From Roseibium salinum (lineage in GTDB: Bacteria > Pseudomonadota > Alphaproteobacteria > Rhizobiales > Stappiaceae), in the NCBI RefSeq assembly GCF_026240905.1, contig NZ_JAPEVI010000003.1:2480001-2544000 (forward strand): 64,000 bases of DNA, given 5' to 3'. Under the pieces are notes generated by a model that was not told the DNA's origin, did no database searches, and saw only the letters and a list, made by a program, of their open reading frames with translations. Of this stretch, positions 16,889 to 26,153 are shown piece after piece (positions within the stretch are counted from its first letter, which is position 1; each line of letters starts with the position of its first letter). A program made the translations under genes and the position numbers.

Positions 16889-17274
16889 CCCTTCAGAGAG
16901 ACTGCCCTGTCCTTCATGCGCGGGCTGGACGGCGGCCAGAAGAAGCAGGATGCCGACCGGGATGAGCGGGCGGCTGCAGTGGAAATCAAATCTGTCCAAC
17001 ACCGGCTTTTCCCCGCCCCTGCGCGGAAACCGGCATTCGCTCAACAGCTTGCCACTTTTCCAGCAAAAACCTGTGCCATGCACGCAGCCGCTTGCCAAGT
17101 GCCTGATGTCATGGCATAAGCGCGCAATCATCAAGAGAAGGGCTGGCGCCCTCGCCAACCTGCCTGACCGGGCAAGGTGGTTTCCGCAACGGGATGCGGC
17201 TGGACAGAACCTCAAGAGAGGCTGATCGGCAACTAAGCGGTTGTTCTCATGCGCCAGTCCTCCTCGGGCAACCG
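16889..17274. other. Gene-free stretch after the ABC exporter
   Basis: I find no supported coding frame here on either strand. The open frames that exist have unbiased composition and no plausible start sites. The stretch probably holds the 3' end of the ABC mRNA and the promoter of the small broken ORF that follows. Confidence 0.35.
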
Positions 17275-19717: not shown

Positions 19718-20410
19718 CTACAGCGTGGACGCCTGTTCCAGGAACGCGACCTGCTCCAGGCAATAGTAGCCGGAGATCCGGCTGATCGTGCCCGAGCGTT
19801 TCCAGTCGTTCAGGACACGGCTGACATTCTCACGGGCCGCGCCGGCCATGTTGGCGATGTCCGCCTGGCTGAGCTTGTAGTGGATCAGCACCCGGCCGTT
19901 GTCGAGCGGCTTGCCGAAGGTTTCCGAAAGCTGCAACAGGGTCTGCGCGACGCGGCCCGGCAGCGGCAGGAAGGAACGGGCGGCCAGCACGTCGTTGGCA
20001 TGGCGTAGGCGCTTGCCGACGATCGACAGCATGTGGCGGTAGACCGCCGGCTTCTCGTCGGCGAAGCGCTGGAACGCCGCCTTGTCGATGAAGGCAAGCT
20101 GGGCTTCCTTCAGGGCGATGACCGTCGCGGAGCGCGGGCGGCCGTCGAGCAATGCCAGTTCGCCGACAAGGTCGCCCGGGCCCAGAACCGCCAGGAGCTG
20201 TTCATCGCCGTCAATCGACATCAAGGACACCTTCAGCGACCCTTCAAGCACCGCATAGCAGCCGTTTCCAGGATCGCCGTTCTCGAAAAGAATTGTACCC
20301 GCCGGTATTTTCATCGGTCGTGCCAGACGCGACAAACCGACCGCCAGTTCGGGGTCGAGCCCCTCCAACGAAAAGCTATTTTTCAGAAAATCCTTTTTGA
20401 TTTCAGCCAC
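19718..20410 (-). CDS. Crp/Fnr-family transcription regulator, cAMP-binding type
   Basis: The product is 230 residues. The N-terminal cyclic-nucleotide domain (about residues 20-135) has GDLVGELALLDGRPRSATVIA, which keeps the Glu and the Arg-Ser pair used by E. coli CRP to hold cAMP. A long dimer helix is followed by a winged helix-turn-helix, LSQADIANMAGAARENVSRVLNDW. There are no FNR-type cysteines. The GTG start has AGGGGGA 7 bases upstream. A TGTGA-N6-TCACG site lies about 56-71 bases before the start, so autoregulation is likely. It probably acts as a cAMP-dependent global or local regulator. Confidence 0.87.
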   Translation of the reverse strand: MAEIKKDFLKNSFSLEGLDPELAVGLSRLARPMKIPAGTILFENGDPGNGCYAVLEGSLKVSLMSIDGDEQLLAVLGPGDLVGELALLDGRPRSATVIALKEAQLAFIDKAAFQRFADEKPAVYRHMLSIVGKRLRHANDVLAARSFLPLPGRVAQTLLQLSETFGKPLDNGRVLIHYKLSQADIANMAGAARENVSRVLNDWKRSGTISRISGYYCLEQVAFLEQASTL

Positions 20411-20481: not shown

Positions 20482-20557
20482 TGCAATCAAGCAAAATATC
20501 CCTATATCTCAAGTCATGGAAGCGGGGGCGCCCCTCCCCCTCTTCCTGGCCTCCACG

Positions 20558-20591
20558 AAAAACGGCTCTGTTCCCCACAGAGCCGTTTTTT
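20558..20591 (-). terminator. Terminator of the glycosylation operon
   Basis: A perfect 14-bp stem (AAAAACGGCTCTGT / ACAGAGCCGTTTTT, loop TCCCC) lies 5 bases after the stop of the YdjC-like gene. T-runs on both sides would let it stop transcription in either direction. Confidence 0.92.
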
Positions 20592-20595
20592 CGTT

Positions 20596-21393
20596 TCAGC
20601 TCAAGAAAACATCCTTCTTGTCCAGCGTTCGGAAAAAGCGGTCGCTGGCCAGGACTTCATACTGGCACTCGCGGATGGCGATTTTCCTGCGGGGTTCGTC
20701 CCGCCGCAGACGGTCGTCGGGGCGGCCTGGTATTGCGGCCACGAAGCTGCGGTCGGTCATGCCGTCGAAATGGTTGTGCAAGAGCCGGTGCAATTCTTCC
20801 CGGTTGGCGATTTCCGGCAGCGGGGCCGCCTTCTGCAGGATCTGCAGCCCGAAGGGCCTGGCAAGGCGGGCCAGCCGCGAGGCCTTGAACCCCGGCGACA
20901 CAGGCGAGATCAGCAGTGGCGGCACGTCGAAATCGGCATGCTCGATCGCCTTGAAGACGAGGCGCGCCAGGGCCGTTCTCTCCAGCAGCCCTTCGCGCAC
21001 GGCAACGAAATCGGGCTGGCGCTTCATCAGCACGCTGTAGCGGGCAAGCTGTGCCTTGGCTTCGTCAAGCAGAAGTTCGTCCGGAAGGAGCCTCAGGAGC
21101 GCGCGGCGCTGGAGCTTTTCGCGCCTGAACATGCGCTCGCCGTAGATCTCCTGCATGCGGGTGCTGACCGGAGACACCCGGTCGCCGCTGAAGGCCAGCG
21201 TCACGCCGAAGTGGACGGACTTGCCGACCATCTCCGCCGTTTCCTGAAGCGGACGGAACTCCCGTGGCCACAGCTCAGTCGCGACGATCGCGCCAACGGC
21301 GCTCAGGCGTCCGTGCTCGGCAAGCTGACGCAATGCGCGGTCGACCCCGAACGCGAGGCCGTAGTCCAATGCTCCAAGAGTAATTCGCTTCAT
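20596..21393 (-). CDS. YdjC/ChbG/HpnK-family protein with lost catalytic residues (pseudo-deacetylase)
   Basis: The product is 265 residues. It lines up end to end with YdjC-family carbohydrate deacetylases: ITLGALDYGLAFGVDRALR, GRLSAVGAIV, VHFGVTLAFSG, RQPDFVAVREGLL and AIPGRPDDRL. Every active-site motif I remember for the family is changed. The Asp pair in ADDYG is ALDYG, the metal His of GLHVTLT is Gly (FGVTLA), the DGHQHV block after PDFV is AVREGL, and HPG is IPG. The frame is intact and the codon use is normal, so this is a maintained protein, probably not an enzyme of the usual kind. ATG 21393 follows GGAAG. It is the last gene of the operon with two glycosyltransferases. A partner or scaffold role is inference. 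Confidence 0.72.
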   Translation of the reverse strand: MKRITLGALDYGLAFGVDRALRQLAEHGRLSAVGAIVATELWPREFRPLQETAEMVGKSVHFGVTLAFSGDRVSPVSTRMQEIYGERMFRREKLQRRALLRLLPDELLLDEAKAQLARYSVLMKRQPDFVAVREGLLERTALARLVFKAIEHADFDVPPLLISPVSPGFKASRLARLARPFGLQILQKAAPLPEIANREELHRLLHNHFDGMTDRSFVAAIPGRPDDRLRRDEPRRKIAIRECQYEVLASDRFFRTLDKKDVFLS

Positions 21394-21498
21394 GAACTTC
21401 CGCAGGCGGACCGGACGGTGGAAATGTCCTACTTCCCTGCGGCATTCATTGCTTGTTTGCAAGTCTCTTCTTGCGAGAGCCTTGAGCCTGTGGCCGGT

Positions 21499-22995
21499 TT
21501 ACCGGTACGAAAGCGGTTCGAGAACAGGGCCGATCCGTCCCTCGACCTTGTAGACGACAAGTTTTTCCAGTCCGATGCCTTTGACCTGACGCTCCAGTTC
21601 GGCGATTTCTTCGACGGTCCGGAAACTGCTGCTCAGTTGGTCCGCCCGGTCGCGGCGTCCTTCGGTGACATAAAGGCCCGGCCGGTCGAAGAGGTCCGGG
21701 ACCGGCTCCGGCTTCATCACATAGCGGATGCGCTCGTTGATCTGGATGACCGGCGCGGTGTCCTTGAGGAGAAAGTCGAGCTGGCCGTTGAGACCGTAGC
21801 TGGACGTCACGACGAAAGCGGCATTTTCCCGGGCCGCCATTTCCTTGATCCGCCCGCCGATCTCCGGCCAGCCGCGCAGCTGGAACGTCGGATCCTTGCG
21901 GGCAAACTGGCCGGTAAACGGGCGGACCGCGTGAAGCTGAACCAGCACGGCGACCAGAAGGCCAAGAACGACGCCCCCAGCCGCGAAGCGCCGCCAGAAC
22001 GTCCGGTCCGGACCAAGCCCGGCCACGAACACGGCGGCCATCAGCGCAAAGGCCGGAAAGAGCGGTGCCGGCCAATTCGCCTGCACACGCGCGTGCAGCG
22101 AGTGATAGAGCAGGTAGAGGAGAAACGGCAGCACGGTGAGGAGCAGCAGCGACGGCGCGATTTCCCGTGCCCGCAATCCCCAGAACAGTTTCACCGCGCC
22201 CAGGGCCGCCAGGATTGCGATCAGCGGATTGGCGAGGCCGATGAGGGCGCCCAGAAACTCGAAGATATATTTCGCCGTATAACCGCCGTTCGCGGCTCTT
22301 CCGAACTGCTTGTAGAAGCTCGCCCATTCGTGGGCGTGGTTCCAGTAAAGCACGGGGCTGAAGCACATAATGGCGATGGCGCCGCCCGCCCAGAGCTGCC
22401 AGGCACCCCACCAGCGGCGGGCTGCCGGCACCCAGGCGAGCCACAGCACGATTCCCGCGCCCAGAAAGAGCACGGAATATTTGGACAGGAGGCCGCAGCC
22501 CGCCATCAGGCCGACGAGCAGCCACCAGTTCGGGTTTTTCGAAACGGAGAGCTCGGCCAGCGCCCACAGGGTGAGCCCCCAGAAGAAGACGGACGGCGCG
22601 TCGGGCGTCGCCAGTATGCCGCCGATGCCGACGAGAAGGCTGGTATTGAGAAACAGCACCGCCCAACCTGCGACCTTTCGGTCGAACAGGATGGCGGAGG
22701 TGCGCCAGAGCGCGACGGTGCCGATCAGGCCGGAGACGATGACGAGCACCCGGACCGCGAACACCGTATCGCCGAAGGCCGCCTGCCCAGCGGCGATCCA
22801 CCAGCCGATCATCGGCGGATGGTCGTAGTAGCTGAGGGCCGGATAAAGACCCCAGAGGCGGTAATAGGCTTCGTCCTCGACGAAATGGGCGTTGGCGGAT
22901 GCAAAGAGCTTCAGGGCCGTCAGCAGGCCGACGACCACAACCAGCCCCGCCGGACGCAGGAAGAACGGCAGGTCGTCTGTCTTTTCAAGTGTCAT
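21499..22995 (-). CDS. ArnT/PMT (GT39/GT83)-like membrane glycosyltransferase
   Basis: The product is 498 residues with about ten to twelve transmembrane helices and a soluble C-terminal periplasmic domain (from about residue 375). The first periplasmic loop carries the hallmark acidic pair and ligand loop: FVEDEAYYRLW, then LSYYDHPPMIGWW. The family (ArnT, PMT, RgtA-type) transfers a sugar from a polyprenyl-phosphate donor to lipid A, core sugars or proteins on the periplasmic side. It starts 12 bases after the stop of the GT2-GtrA gene, which should make that donor. The sugar and the acceptor are unknown. Lipid A or LPS core is the best guess. Confidence 0.87.
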   Translation of the reverse strand: MTLEKTDDLPFFLRPAGLVVVVGLLTALKLFASANAHFVEDEAYYRLWGLYPALSYYDHPPMIGWWIAAGQAAFGDTVFAVRVLVIVSGLIGTVALWRTSAILFDRKVAGWAVLFLNTSLLVGIGGILATPDAPSVFFWGLTLWALAELSVSKNPNWWLLVGLMAGCGLLSKYSVLFLGAGIVLWLAWVPAARRWWGAWQLWAGGAIAIMCFSPVLYWNHAHEWASFYKQFGRAANGGYTAKYIFEFLGALIGLANPLIAILAALGAVKLFWGLRAREIAPSLLLLTVLPFLLYLLYHSLHARVQANWPAPLFPAFALMAAVFVAGLGPDRTFWRRFAAGGVVLGLLVAVLVQLHAVRPFTGQFARKDPTFQLRGWPEIGGRIKEMAARENAAFVVTSSYGLNGQLDFLLKDTAPVIQINERIRYVMKPEPVPDLFDRPGLYVTEGRRDRADQLSSSFRTVEEIAELERQVKGIGLEKLVVYKVEGRIGPVLEPLSYR

Positions 22996-23007
22996 CGGCG
23001 GGCGCTC

Positions 23008-24168
23008 TTACGATTTGCGCCAGGTGAGAGCCGAGCTGGCCGCATAGTTCCAGACCGCACCCATGATCGCGCCGGCCGTACCGGCGAACCACCAGTAGGA
23101 CGGGTCGGTATAGATCAGGTTGGCGACGCCGACATTGGCCAGCACGCCGACCGAGCAGACGGCATAAAATGTGAAGAGGCCGATCAGGGCCTGCATGCCG
23201 CGCAGGCGGCGGTCGCGGTAGGTCAGCTGGTTGTTGAGAAAGAAGTTCGACGTCATGGCCACGAAGGAGGCCCCGGTCTGGGCGAGATTGAATTCCACGT
23301 CGCCGAGCAGGAGCATCCTGAGGGCCACCAGATGAACGACGAGACCGCTGGCGCCGACAAGGCCGAACATCAGGAAACGGACGGAGACGACATTGCCGAA
23401 ATACTTGGCGAGCAGCAGGCCGAAATAGTCCAGCGTGACCAGCGTATCCAGCTTGCTTTCGCCGTGCTGGCGCTCGCGGAAGGTGAACGGAAGCTCCGTG
23501 ATCTTCAGGCTTCCCGCAGCGCTGGAGACGAGATCCAGCAGGATCTTGAACCCCTGCGGCGACAGTTTCGGCGCCAGCGCTTCGGCCTTTTCCCGGCGGA
23601 TCATGAAGAACCCGCTCATCGGGTCCGTCAAGGTTATGTTCAGGAGCTTCTGGGCCAGCGAGTTGGCAATGTTGGAGCCCCAGGCGCGGATCGACGAGAG
23701 CCCCTCGCCCGCGGTGCCGCCGTCGATCTTGCGGCTGGCAACCACGAGGTCGGTGTCCCCTGTCTTCAGTTCCGCCAGCATTTTCGGCAGCATCGTCTCG
23801 TCATGCTGCAGGTCGGCATCCATGACGGCGACATAGGGCGCCGAGGAGGCAAGGATGCCTTCGATGCAGGCGCCGGACAGCCCGCGCCGGCCGATGCGGC
23901 GGATCACCCGGATGCGGGCATCCGTCTGCGCAATGGCGCGTGCGACGCCCGCCGTGCCATCAGGCGAATTGTCGTCGACGACGATGGCTTCCCACGCAAT
24001 GCCCTCAAGGGCCGTGTCGAGCAGACCGACCAGGATCGGAATGTTGGCGGCTTCGTTGAAGCTGGGCAGGATAACGCTGAGTTCAGCAGGTTCTGCCGGC
24101 CGGACATGCCGGCTCTCCGACCCGCCGTTCAAGGCCTTGTCCTCTGCGATGCGCGCCGCACTGTCCAT
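23008..24168 (-). CDS. Polyprenyl-phosphate sugar synthase: GT2 domain fused to GtrA
   Basis: The product is 386 residues. Residues about 30-250 form a DPM1-like GT2 domain: LSVILPSFNEAANIPILV, VVDDNSPDGTAGVA, the DxD-type VMDADLQHDETMLPKML, and SGFFMIRR. The rest (about 260-385) is a four-helix GtrA domain beginning VRFLMFGLVGASGLVVHLVA, with the typical NFFLNNQLTYRDRR motif. The GT2 part loads a sugar onto undecaprenyl phosphate on the cytoplasmic side, and the GtrA part is thought to help flip it. It is the first gene of the operon with an ArnT-like transferase, so the two should form a donor-to-acceptor route. It is divergent from hisS across 371 bases. Confidence 0.88.
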   Translation of the reverse strand: MDSAARIAEDKALNGGSESRHVRPAEPAELSVILPSFNEAANIPILVGLLDTALEGIAWEAIVVDDNSPDGTAGVARAIAQTDARIRVIRRIGRRGLSGACIEGILASSAPYVAVMDADLQHDETMLPKMLAELKTGDTDLVVASRKIDGGTAGEGLSSIRAWGSNIANSLAQKLLNITLTDPMSGFFMIRREKAEALAPKLSPQGFKILLDLVSSAAGSLKITELPFTFRERQHGESKLDTLVTLDYFGLLLAKYFGNVVSVRFLMFGLVGASGLVVHLVALRMLLLGDVEFNLAQTGASFVAMTSNFFLNNQLTYRDRRLRGMQALIGLFTFYAVCSVGVLANVGVANLIYTDPSYWWFAGTAGAIMGAVWNYAASSALTWRKS

Positions 24169-24539: not shown

Positions 24540-26153
24540 ATGGCCCAAAAACCGAATAAACTGAAAGCCCGCCTGCCGCGCGGCTTCGTTGACCGCTCTG
24601 CCGAAGACATCCGTGCGACCGACGAGATGCTGGCCAATATCCGCACGGTTTTCGAGCGCTACGGTTTCGACCCCGTCGAGACGCCCGCCTTCGAATATAC
24701 CGATTGCCTGGGCAAGTTCCTGCCGGACACCGACCGGCCGAATGCCGGCGTCTTTTCCGTGCAGGACGACGACGAGCAGTGGATGAGCCTGCGCTACGAC
24801 CTGACGGCGCCGCTTGCGCGTCATGTTTCTGAAAACATCAATGAAATCCAGATGCCCTACCGCACCTACCGTGCGGGCTGGGTGTTCCGCAACGAGAAGC
24901 CGGGCCCGGGCCGGTACCGCCAGTTCATGCAGTTCGACGCCGACACGGTCGGTGCGCCGGGCGTTCAGGCGGACGCGGAAATGTGCATGATGATGGCGGA
25001 TACGATGGAGGCCCTCGGCATCCCGCGCGGCGACTACGTCATCCGCGTCAACAACCGCAAGGTTCTGGACGGGCTGATGGAAGCTGTCGGTCTTGGCGGC
25101 GATGAAAATAGCCAAACCCGCCTCACGGTGCTTCGCGCACTCGACAAGCTTGATAAGTTTGACTGGGACGAAATCGCTAAGTTGTTGGGCGAAGGGCGGA
25201 AGGACGAAAGCGGCGATTTCACCTCCGGTGCCAATCTCTCCAGCACCCAAATAGATGTTATCAAAGGATACGTATTCGCTTCCGGCTATGGCACAGATTC
25301 AGGGATCGAGCATTTCCAGAAGCCTGCTGACGTTGAAGGGTATGTAGAAGGCGATGAGCAGGAATCATCACCGGGTTTGTACTACTCAAATCTAGCTACG
25401 ATATCCGGCCTCGAAGCAATTGTCGGAGATACCGCCAGCGGGCGCGCGGCACTGAACGAACTAAACGTTCTGTTCAAAGTTACGTCTTTGTCCGGATATG
25501 GTTCAAAGCGCATTAGATTTGACCCCTCCGTCGTCCGTGGTCTGGAGTATTACACCGGCCCCGTCTACGAAGCCGAGCTCCTGTTCGACGTTACCAACGA
25601 AAAGGGCGAAGTGGTCCAGTTCGGCTCGGTCGGCGGCGGCGGGCGGTATGACGGGCTCGTCAAGCGCTTCACCGGTCGCGACGTTCCGGCGACCGGCTTT
25701 TCCATCGGCGTTTCCCGGCTGATGACCGCCCTGAAAAACCTCGGCAAGCTGAGCGCGTCCGAGGTGGTGGCGCCGGTGCTCGTCACCGTGATGGACGGCG
25801 ATGTGGCGGCGCTTGGCCGCTATCAGAAAATGGTTCAGGATCTGCGCAATGCCGGGATCCGCGCGGAAATGTACCAGGGCAACTGGAAGAAGTTCGGCAA
25901 CCAGCTGAAATATGCCGACCGGCGCGGCTGTCCGGTCGCCATAATCCAGGGCTCCGACGAGCGCCAGGCCGGCGAGATCCAGGTCAAGGACCTGATCGAG
26001 GGCAAACGCCTGTCGGAGGAAATCACCGACAACATCACGTGGCGCGAAAGCCGCCCGGCGCAGGTCACCGTGAAGGAAACCGACCTGATCGAGACGATCC
26101 GCGGCATCCTGGACGGCCAGGCCGAGGACCGCAGACGGGCGAGCGAGGGTTGA
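24540..26153 (+). CDS. hisS: Histidyl-tRNA synthetase
   Basis: The product is 537 residues. The class II aaRS motifs are present: [20 protein letters not shown] at the N-terminus, motif 2 [19 protein letters not shown], the histidine-binding [18 protein letters not shown] and motif 3 near [13 protein letters not shown]. The anticodon-binding domain follows from about residue 415. It charges tRNA-His in the cytoplasm. The length fits the longer alphaproteobacterial form. The middle (about 25100-25545, residues 187-335) is clearly less GC-rich than the rest, although the frame is unbroken, which points to replacement by a diverged allele. hisZ follows after 4 bases, so the three his genes form an operon. 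Confidence 0.95.

Follow-up and report, generated by a model that had tools for sequence, protein, structure and literature searches.

A YdjC/ChbG-fold protein with a degenerate deacetylase site is retained in a conserved glycosyltransferase operon of the Stappiaceae

What becomes of a deacetylase fold when most of the residues that carry out deacetylation have been replaced? This question is raised by a three-gene operon of Roseibium salinum, which lies in a stretch of 64,000 nucleotides (the window; contig NZ_JAPEVI010000003.1, positions 2,480,001 to 2,544,000) and encodes two glycosyltransferases, here called GT2-GtrA and GT39, and a protein of the YdjC/ChbG family (window positions 20596..21393, minus strand; 265 amino acids from an ATG at 21393). 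The protein matches PF04794 with 48.8 bits against a curated cut-off of 29.7, which places it in the family, and modeling predicts that it has the ChbG fold. The original prediction held that it had lost every active-site residue while keeping an intact frame, and that it might be a retained pseudoenzyme serving the transferases. Alignment and modeling together indicate that the fold is kept and that the general base, two of the three Zn ligands, the general acid and the arginine of the YVR motif are gone.

The active site of this family is described for kpChbG, for which PMC9402603 gives D11, H61 and H125 as Zn ligands, D10 as the general base, H206 as the general acid and R223 as a residue of the groove. 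A phmmer search of the PDB with the single window sequence gave no match. We aligned a profile of 54 homologues, consisting of the window protein and 53 of the 96 found, to kpChbG (7vi8) through residue 149 and to EF3048 along its full length; this profile includes the site-intact protein P0096 and hence is not made purely of degenerate proteins. In the resulting alignment L9 falls opposite the general base D10 and D10 opposite the Zn ligand D11 (both codons at 21364..21369, like all codons here on the minus strand), T65 opposite H61 (21199..21201), A131 opposite D123 and R133 opposite H125 (20995..20997). Two further residues were placed through EF3048: I221 (20731..20733) at the HPG-type histidine of the CHP motif, the former general acid corresponding to kpChbG H206, and R241 (20671..20673) at the C-terminal arginine, which on the EF3048 arginine alignment is presumed to be the equivalent of kpChbG R223. 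The predicted loss is therefore extensive and not total. It extends to the first aspartate (L9), both Zn histidines (T65 and R133), the aspartate of the DxH motif (A131) and the HPG histidine (I221), and it stops short of the second aspartate, a Zn ligand kept as D10, and the conserved arginine kept as R241. In addition, one alignment leaves the YVR arginine unmatched in the degenerate proteins and another sets a hydrophobic residue opposite it. The loss of this arginine is firm, and whether it arose by deletion depends on the alignment.

These substitutions are not a peculiarity of one sequence. The family of the window, Stappiaceae, is represented here by 87 genomes, all of which contain a YdjC match, and residues were counted in the low-scoring YdjC locus of the 86 other genomes and in the window. 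At the general base position we found L in 63, V in 9, A in 7, P in 7 and S in 1, and aspartate in none. The first Zn histidine is replaced in all 87 (T 82, N 3, S 2), as is the aspartate at the D123 position (A 60, H 14, T 9, F 2, L 1, S 1). The second Zn histidine is lost in 84 of the 87 (R 49, Q 14, A 13, H 3 and eight others) and the general acid in 85 (I 40, R 20, Q 10, L 5, S 3, H 2 and seven others), whereas the Zn-ligand aspartate persists as an acidic residue in 86 (D 68, E 18, S 1). By comparison, the D, D, H, H and H of the normal site are kept in 90 of 90 comparison rows, which are mostly best-scoring YdjC matches and include at least three genes present twice; the 102 rows beyond the family set comprise these 90, five from Cohaesibacter, five repeats of family rows, one locus of another family (L115) and one fragment. 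A set made up of the window and 95 database proteins gave the same picture, with the base aspartate in 0 of 93 readable rows, the first Zn histidine in 0 of 94 readable rows, histidine at the second Zn position in 1 of 96 and at the general acid position in 2 of 95, and related proteins intact in 32 of 32. Thus orthologues with the same operon share the replacement of the base and first Zn histidine (87/87), and neither of the outcomes that had been named as fatal to the original prediction, intact Asp/His ligands on proper alignment or normal orthologues, appeared. The idea that only the window sequence is degenerate is ruled out.

Several observations concern the copies themselves. The closest named relatives of the window protein are from Roseibium/Labrenzia (Stappiaceae), with identity up to 82%. 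One database copy, the 266-residue P0001, was omitted from the set of 96; its last dozen residues differ from the window translation (20596-20640) in a manner resembling a frame change, and the family consensus agrees with the window C-terminus and not with P0001. A TTG at 21462 was considered as the start of the gene and is probably not used, since the ATG at 21393 (MKRIT) is the start in most relatives. The R. salinum genome has a single YdjC match, the operon copy. An extra, site-intact YdjC lies elsewhere in the genome in 25 of the 87 Stappiaceae (L150-L174), in two of these second copies (L153 and L154) the match is interrupted by an in-frame TAA, and one further genome (G229) has a short extra fragment.

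The residue losses make Zn-dependent deacetylation by the degenerate protein very unlikely. One might still argue that the protein is an active deacetylase whose metal site is not recognized as such, since one Zn-ligand aspartate and the conserved arginine are retained and the Pfam score remains above the cut-off. We regard this as highly improbable: the base, both histidine ligands and the general acid are gone in nearly all 87 genomes, and in kpChbG the single changes H61A and H206A each suffice to abolish product formation (PMC9402603). Moreover, when conserved histidines and cysteines were sought across the 87 family sequences, no histidine position exceeded 57% and no histidine or cysteine reached 80%, which also argues against a Zn-His site that re-formed elsewhere in the chain.

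Could the gene simply be decaying? The YdjC protein is under purifying selection. We compared 24 disjoint pairs from the 70 genomes that have all five genes examined, chosen so that the synonymous divergence (dS) of the Crp-family gene lay between 0.05 and 1.2. The median ratio of nonsynonymous to synonymous rates (omega) is 0.094 for YdjC, compared with 0.155 for GT39, 0.071 for GT2, 0.024 for Crp and 0.077 for HisS. None of the 87 degenerate matches contains a stop codon, and length is nearly fixed, at 265 amino acids in 61 of them. A pseudogene in decay could draw on the length of the YdjC protein tree (16.8), which is about that of GT39 (16.3) and above those of the other compared genes (5.4-12.4), but the selection and length data contradict this explanation and leave it scarcely any credence. 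The claims of an intact frame and of a retained pseudoenzyme were therefore well founded, the latter through shared substitutions together with purifying selection.

The distribution of rates along the protein agrees with a retained fold and an altered job. The positions of the former base, H125 and H206 lie in mid-range (rate percentiles 0.42, 0.53 and 0.55), whereas D10 (0.15), T65 (0.16) and R241 (0.07, among the slowest sites) are slow, and Trp42, Glu45, Glu111 and Gln115 likewise. An alternative is that the site was remodeled for another reaction, perhaps on a polyprenyl-phosphate sugar, with carboxylates and arginine (Asp/Glu10, Glu45, Asp226 and Arg241) in place of Zn and histidine. Asp/Glu10 and Arg241 are each found in 86 of the 87 family rows, Trp42 in all 87, Glu45 in 85 and Thr65 in 82. 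The glutamate next to Arg241 has become Gln in 79, as if the site had been re-tuned, and it is Glu in 60 of 61 near comparison rows. However, Glu111, Gln115 and Arg241 are about equally conserved in normal YdjC proteins (59, 61 and 58 of 61) and so may be structural, and many normal proteins share Glu45 (25/61) and Trp42 (37/61). Three of the formerly catalytic positions are now free to vary, and Glu45 is missing in four of the five Cohaesibacter rows. Thr65, Pro193, Pro159, Asp261 and others are conserved residues new to the degenerate clade; one of the comparisons behind this kept 61 of the 90 comparison rows, thinned to 42, and thinned the 87 family rows to 29. We know of no catalytic pattern that matches the conserved residues of such an enzyme. 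A rebuilt enzyme thus appears rather unlikely.

When did the site disappear? Degenerate copies are also present in Cohaesibacter, where the base, the second Zn histidine and the general acid are absent in all five rows and a histidine stands at the first Zn position in one (L112). As in Roseibium, hisG/hisZ and an Rrf2 gene lie nearby in all five loci, and a globin gene in three; in one locus hisG is separated from the degenerate YdjC by the gene of a glycosyl hydrolase family 3 protein (L111, 7176-8306, minus strand; Pfam, 162 bits). We built a tree of 72 rows, obtained by removing L115 and L197 from 74, in which 30 of the 87 Stappiaceae were included and 12 site columns were left out. A branch at 98/97 separates the degenerate proteins, 30 from Stappiaceae and 7 of Cohaesibacter type, from the rest. 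Because they form one clade that includes Cohaesibacter, the site was most simply lost once; the clade could also stem from transfer between Stappiaceae and Cohaesibacter. The Cohaesibacter copies lack the C-terminal end and have a branch length of 2.35 changes per site, which means that their role may differ from that of the Stappiaceae protein, and their structural model is poor, with a predicted local distance difference test score (pLDDT) of 70. The YdjC protein of L115, from a 2.3-Mb genome of another family of the order (G007:C142, 4755-5513, minus strand), was considered as a further member and rejected on its long branch (2.84) and its position outside the degenerate clade in a quick tree. 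It also lacks the site residues, lies near genes identified by eye as resembling dnaN, recF and gyrB, and is perhaps a second, independent loss.

All three genes of the operon lie where they had been predicted, on the minus strand, and the Pfam searches matched GT2, GtrA, PMT_2 and YdjC. The first encodes a 386-residue GT2 glycosyltransferase with a C-terminal GtrA/DPMS membrane domain (23008..24168; PF00535 and PF04138 above cut-off). Its best match among solved structures in a PDB sequence search is the dolichol monophosphate mannose synthase 5mlz (E 7e-46), which suggests a synthase of the polyprenyl-phosphate sugar type. The second encodes a 498-residue GT39/PMT_2-type membrane glycosyltransferase (21499..22995; PF13231, 113 bits), for which a sequence search of the PDB gave no credible relative. 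The genes are packed as described, with 12 bases between GT2-GtrA and GT39 (22996-23007) and 105 between GT39 and YdjC (21394-21498, with the ATG at 21393), and the operon is closed by a strong intrinsic terminator, a stem-loop at 20558..20591 on the minus strand that a simple terminator scan missed and that folding recovered (-33.3 kcal/mol for 20545-20612, z -6.56).

This arrangement is strictly conserved. GT2, GT39 and YdjC follow in the same order on one strand in 85 of 86 fetched family loci and in the window, that is in 86 of 87 genomes, and the single exception begins at a contig end. None of the other genes searched for lies between the three in these 85 loci. In 84 of them the GT39 stop and the YdjC match are separated by 49 to at most 250 bases, and the median over all 85 is 98. 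The outlier, L223, has gaps of 764 and 383 bases, which suggests that its GT39 match is short or broken. A scan of named genomes, a set that overlaps this one, found the trio in 47 of 48 loci, the remaining one again at a contig end. The order is maintained even though YdjC identity falls to about 36% within the family.

Because the operon is so strict, we consider the best reading to be that the YdjC protein, built on a deacetylase fold, serves without catalysis as an accessory or regulator in a polyprenyl-phosphate sugar pathway, and we give this reading an even chance of being correct. That the protein has ceased to be a deacetylase is nearly certain; its role in glycosylation is one that we infer. 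We envision a scenario in which the Zn site was lost once, before Stappiaceae and Cohaesibacter split, and selection has since kept the protein, which would act as a soluble, cytosolic, non-catalytic subunit. The old groove, lined by the conserved Asp/Glu10, Arg241 and Thr65, could hold a sugar-type or phosphate ligand. In Stappiaceae the protein may tune or scaffold the polyprenyl-phosphate sugar pathway of GT2-GtrA and GT39 and leave the chemistry of that pathway unaltered. A more specific formulation, which we advance only tentatively, is a family-wide conversion to a non-hydrolytic sensor or chaperone of polyprenyl-phosphate sugars, or to an enzyme of carboxylate chemistry, within the operon of the transferases it serves.

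Several results weigh against an accessory role beside the transferases. What ties the YdjC protein to them is gene order. GT2-GtrA adjoins GT39 in 21 of the 23 best-scoring loci from other families of the order, taken from 30 GT39 loci returned, and none of the 23 has a YdjC gene within 1.5 kb of GT39; several of these genomes carry YdjC elsewhere. Cohaesibacter keeps the degenerate YdjC without recognizable orthologues of either transferase: in five genomes GT39 has no match in three and weak matches in two (E about 1e-11 to 1e-10), and the best GT2-GtrA matches reach 32-35% identity. The transferase pair thus exists without the degenerate YdjC, and the degenerate YdjC without the pair; among the groups sampled, the two come together in Stappiaceae alone. 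Rate covariation, computed over 62 genomes and 60 branches with Crp, HisS and a thioesterase as controls, does not set the transferases clearly above the control genes: the residual rho with YdjC is 0.41 for GT39 and 0.49 for GT2, compared with 0.45 for Crp, 0.37 for HisS and 0.36 for the thioesterase, and the log-ratio values are 0.32, 0.41, 0.44, 0.22 and 0.33 in the same order. In 5 of the 24 pairs (dS 0.9-1.7) YdjC omega rises to 0.31-0.56, with the highest value in the pair that contains the window. Finally, the kept Asp/Glu10, Glu111 and Arg241, together with the strongly conserved Trp42 and Glu45, could make a new active site.

The lack of recognizable transferase orthologues in Cohaesibacter, the 23 GT39 loci that do without an adjoining YdjC and the non-specific covariation speak for a protein retained for a job unrelated to the transferases, with the Stappiaceae operon a historical accident. 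The closest Cohaesibacter pair, with an omega of 0.095 at dS 1.68 (7 of 10 pairs are saturated), can be read in the same way. We nevertheless think an unrelated job unlikely: the gene order has survived in 86 of 87 genomes while YdjC diverged, and the truncated, long-branched Cohaesibacter copies may have a different role. The suggestion that the protein is a partner of the transferases accordingly keeps the support of gene order and gains none from Cohaesibacter, from covariation or from the GT39 loci of other families.

Outside the operon, hisS (identified by eye) runs divergently from its start at 24540; a Crp-family gene identified by Pfam (19718-20410, minus strand) lies downstream of YdjC. 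Farther away, a SAM-I/IV riboswitch occupies 17123-17246 on the plus strand (58.7 bits), and all 7 related loci that were tested have it at the equivalent site. Downstream of it on the same strand there are only small reading frames before an opposed thioesterase gene. In one related locus (L013) a 98-residue frame follows the riboswitch; the similar stretch of the window is split over two frames.

In the marine family to which Roseibium belongs, an old enzyme fold seems to have been turned to a new function. Sources that name these proteins usually call them "ChbG/HpnK family deacetylase", a label that is in all probability incorrect for the loci studied here, 87 from Stappiaceae and 5 from Cohaesibacter. 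If the protein is indeed a pseudoenzyme, the family offers a natural experiment, with one likely loss and a partner operon that is fixed across 87 genomes, to be set against families that have the transferases and no neighboring YdjC and a genus that has the dead protein and no recognizable transferase orthologues. Ordinary marine bacteria would then allow a test of what non-catalytic subunits do in polyprenyl-phosphate glycosylation.

In the amino-sugar lipid A pathway of Francisella (FlmF2-NaxD-FlmK) and in its Bordetella equivalent, a YdjC protein is likewise encoded together with a synthase of polyprenyl-phosphate sugars and a transferase of GT39 type, and the same three kinds of gene are linked in 86 of the 87 Stappiaceae genomes. 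NaxD actively deacetylates undecaprenyl-phosphate GalNAc (PMC11279074), whereas the catalytic residues that define a functional deacetylase have been lost from the Stappiaceae protein. The analogy drawn in the original prediction is consequently weak: GT2-GtrA is closest to 5mlz, the GT39 homologues of other families have no neighboring YdjC in any of the 23 loci, and deacetylation is very unlikely. Compared with the ChbG/YdjC deacetylases kpChbG (7vi8), EF3048 (2i5i) and TTHB029 (2e67), the window protein lacks the base, the two Zn histidines, the general-acid histidine and the YVR arginine. Our searches of an open-licence library turned up no description of an inactive branch of YdjC; inactive deacetylase folds are known from CE4, in which BA0150 (4m1b) is called a pseudoenzyme in PMC10967932 and BA3943 (6hpa) in its PDB title. 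The degenerate YdjC proteins of the Stappiaceae would thus resemble these CE4 pseudoenzymes in retaining a deacetylase fold after the loss of catalysis.

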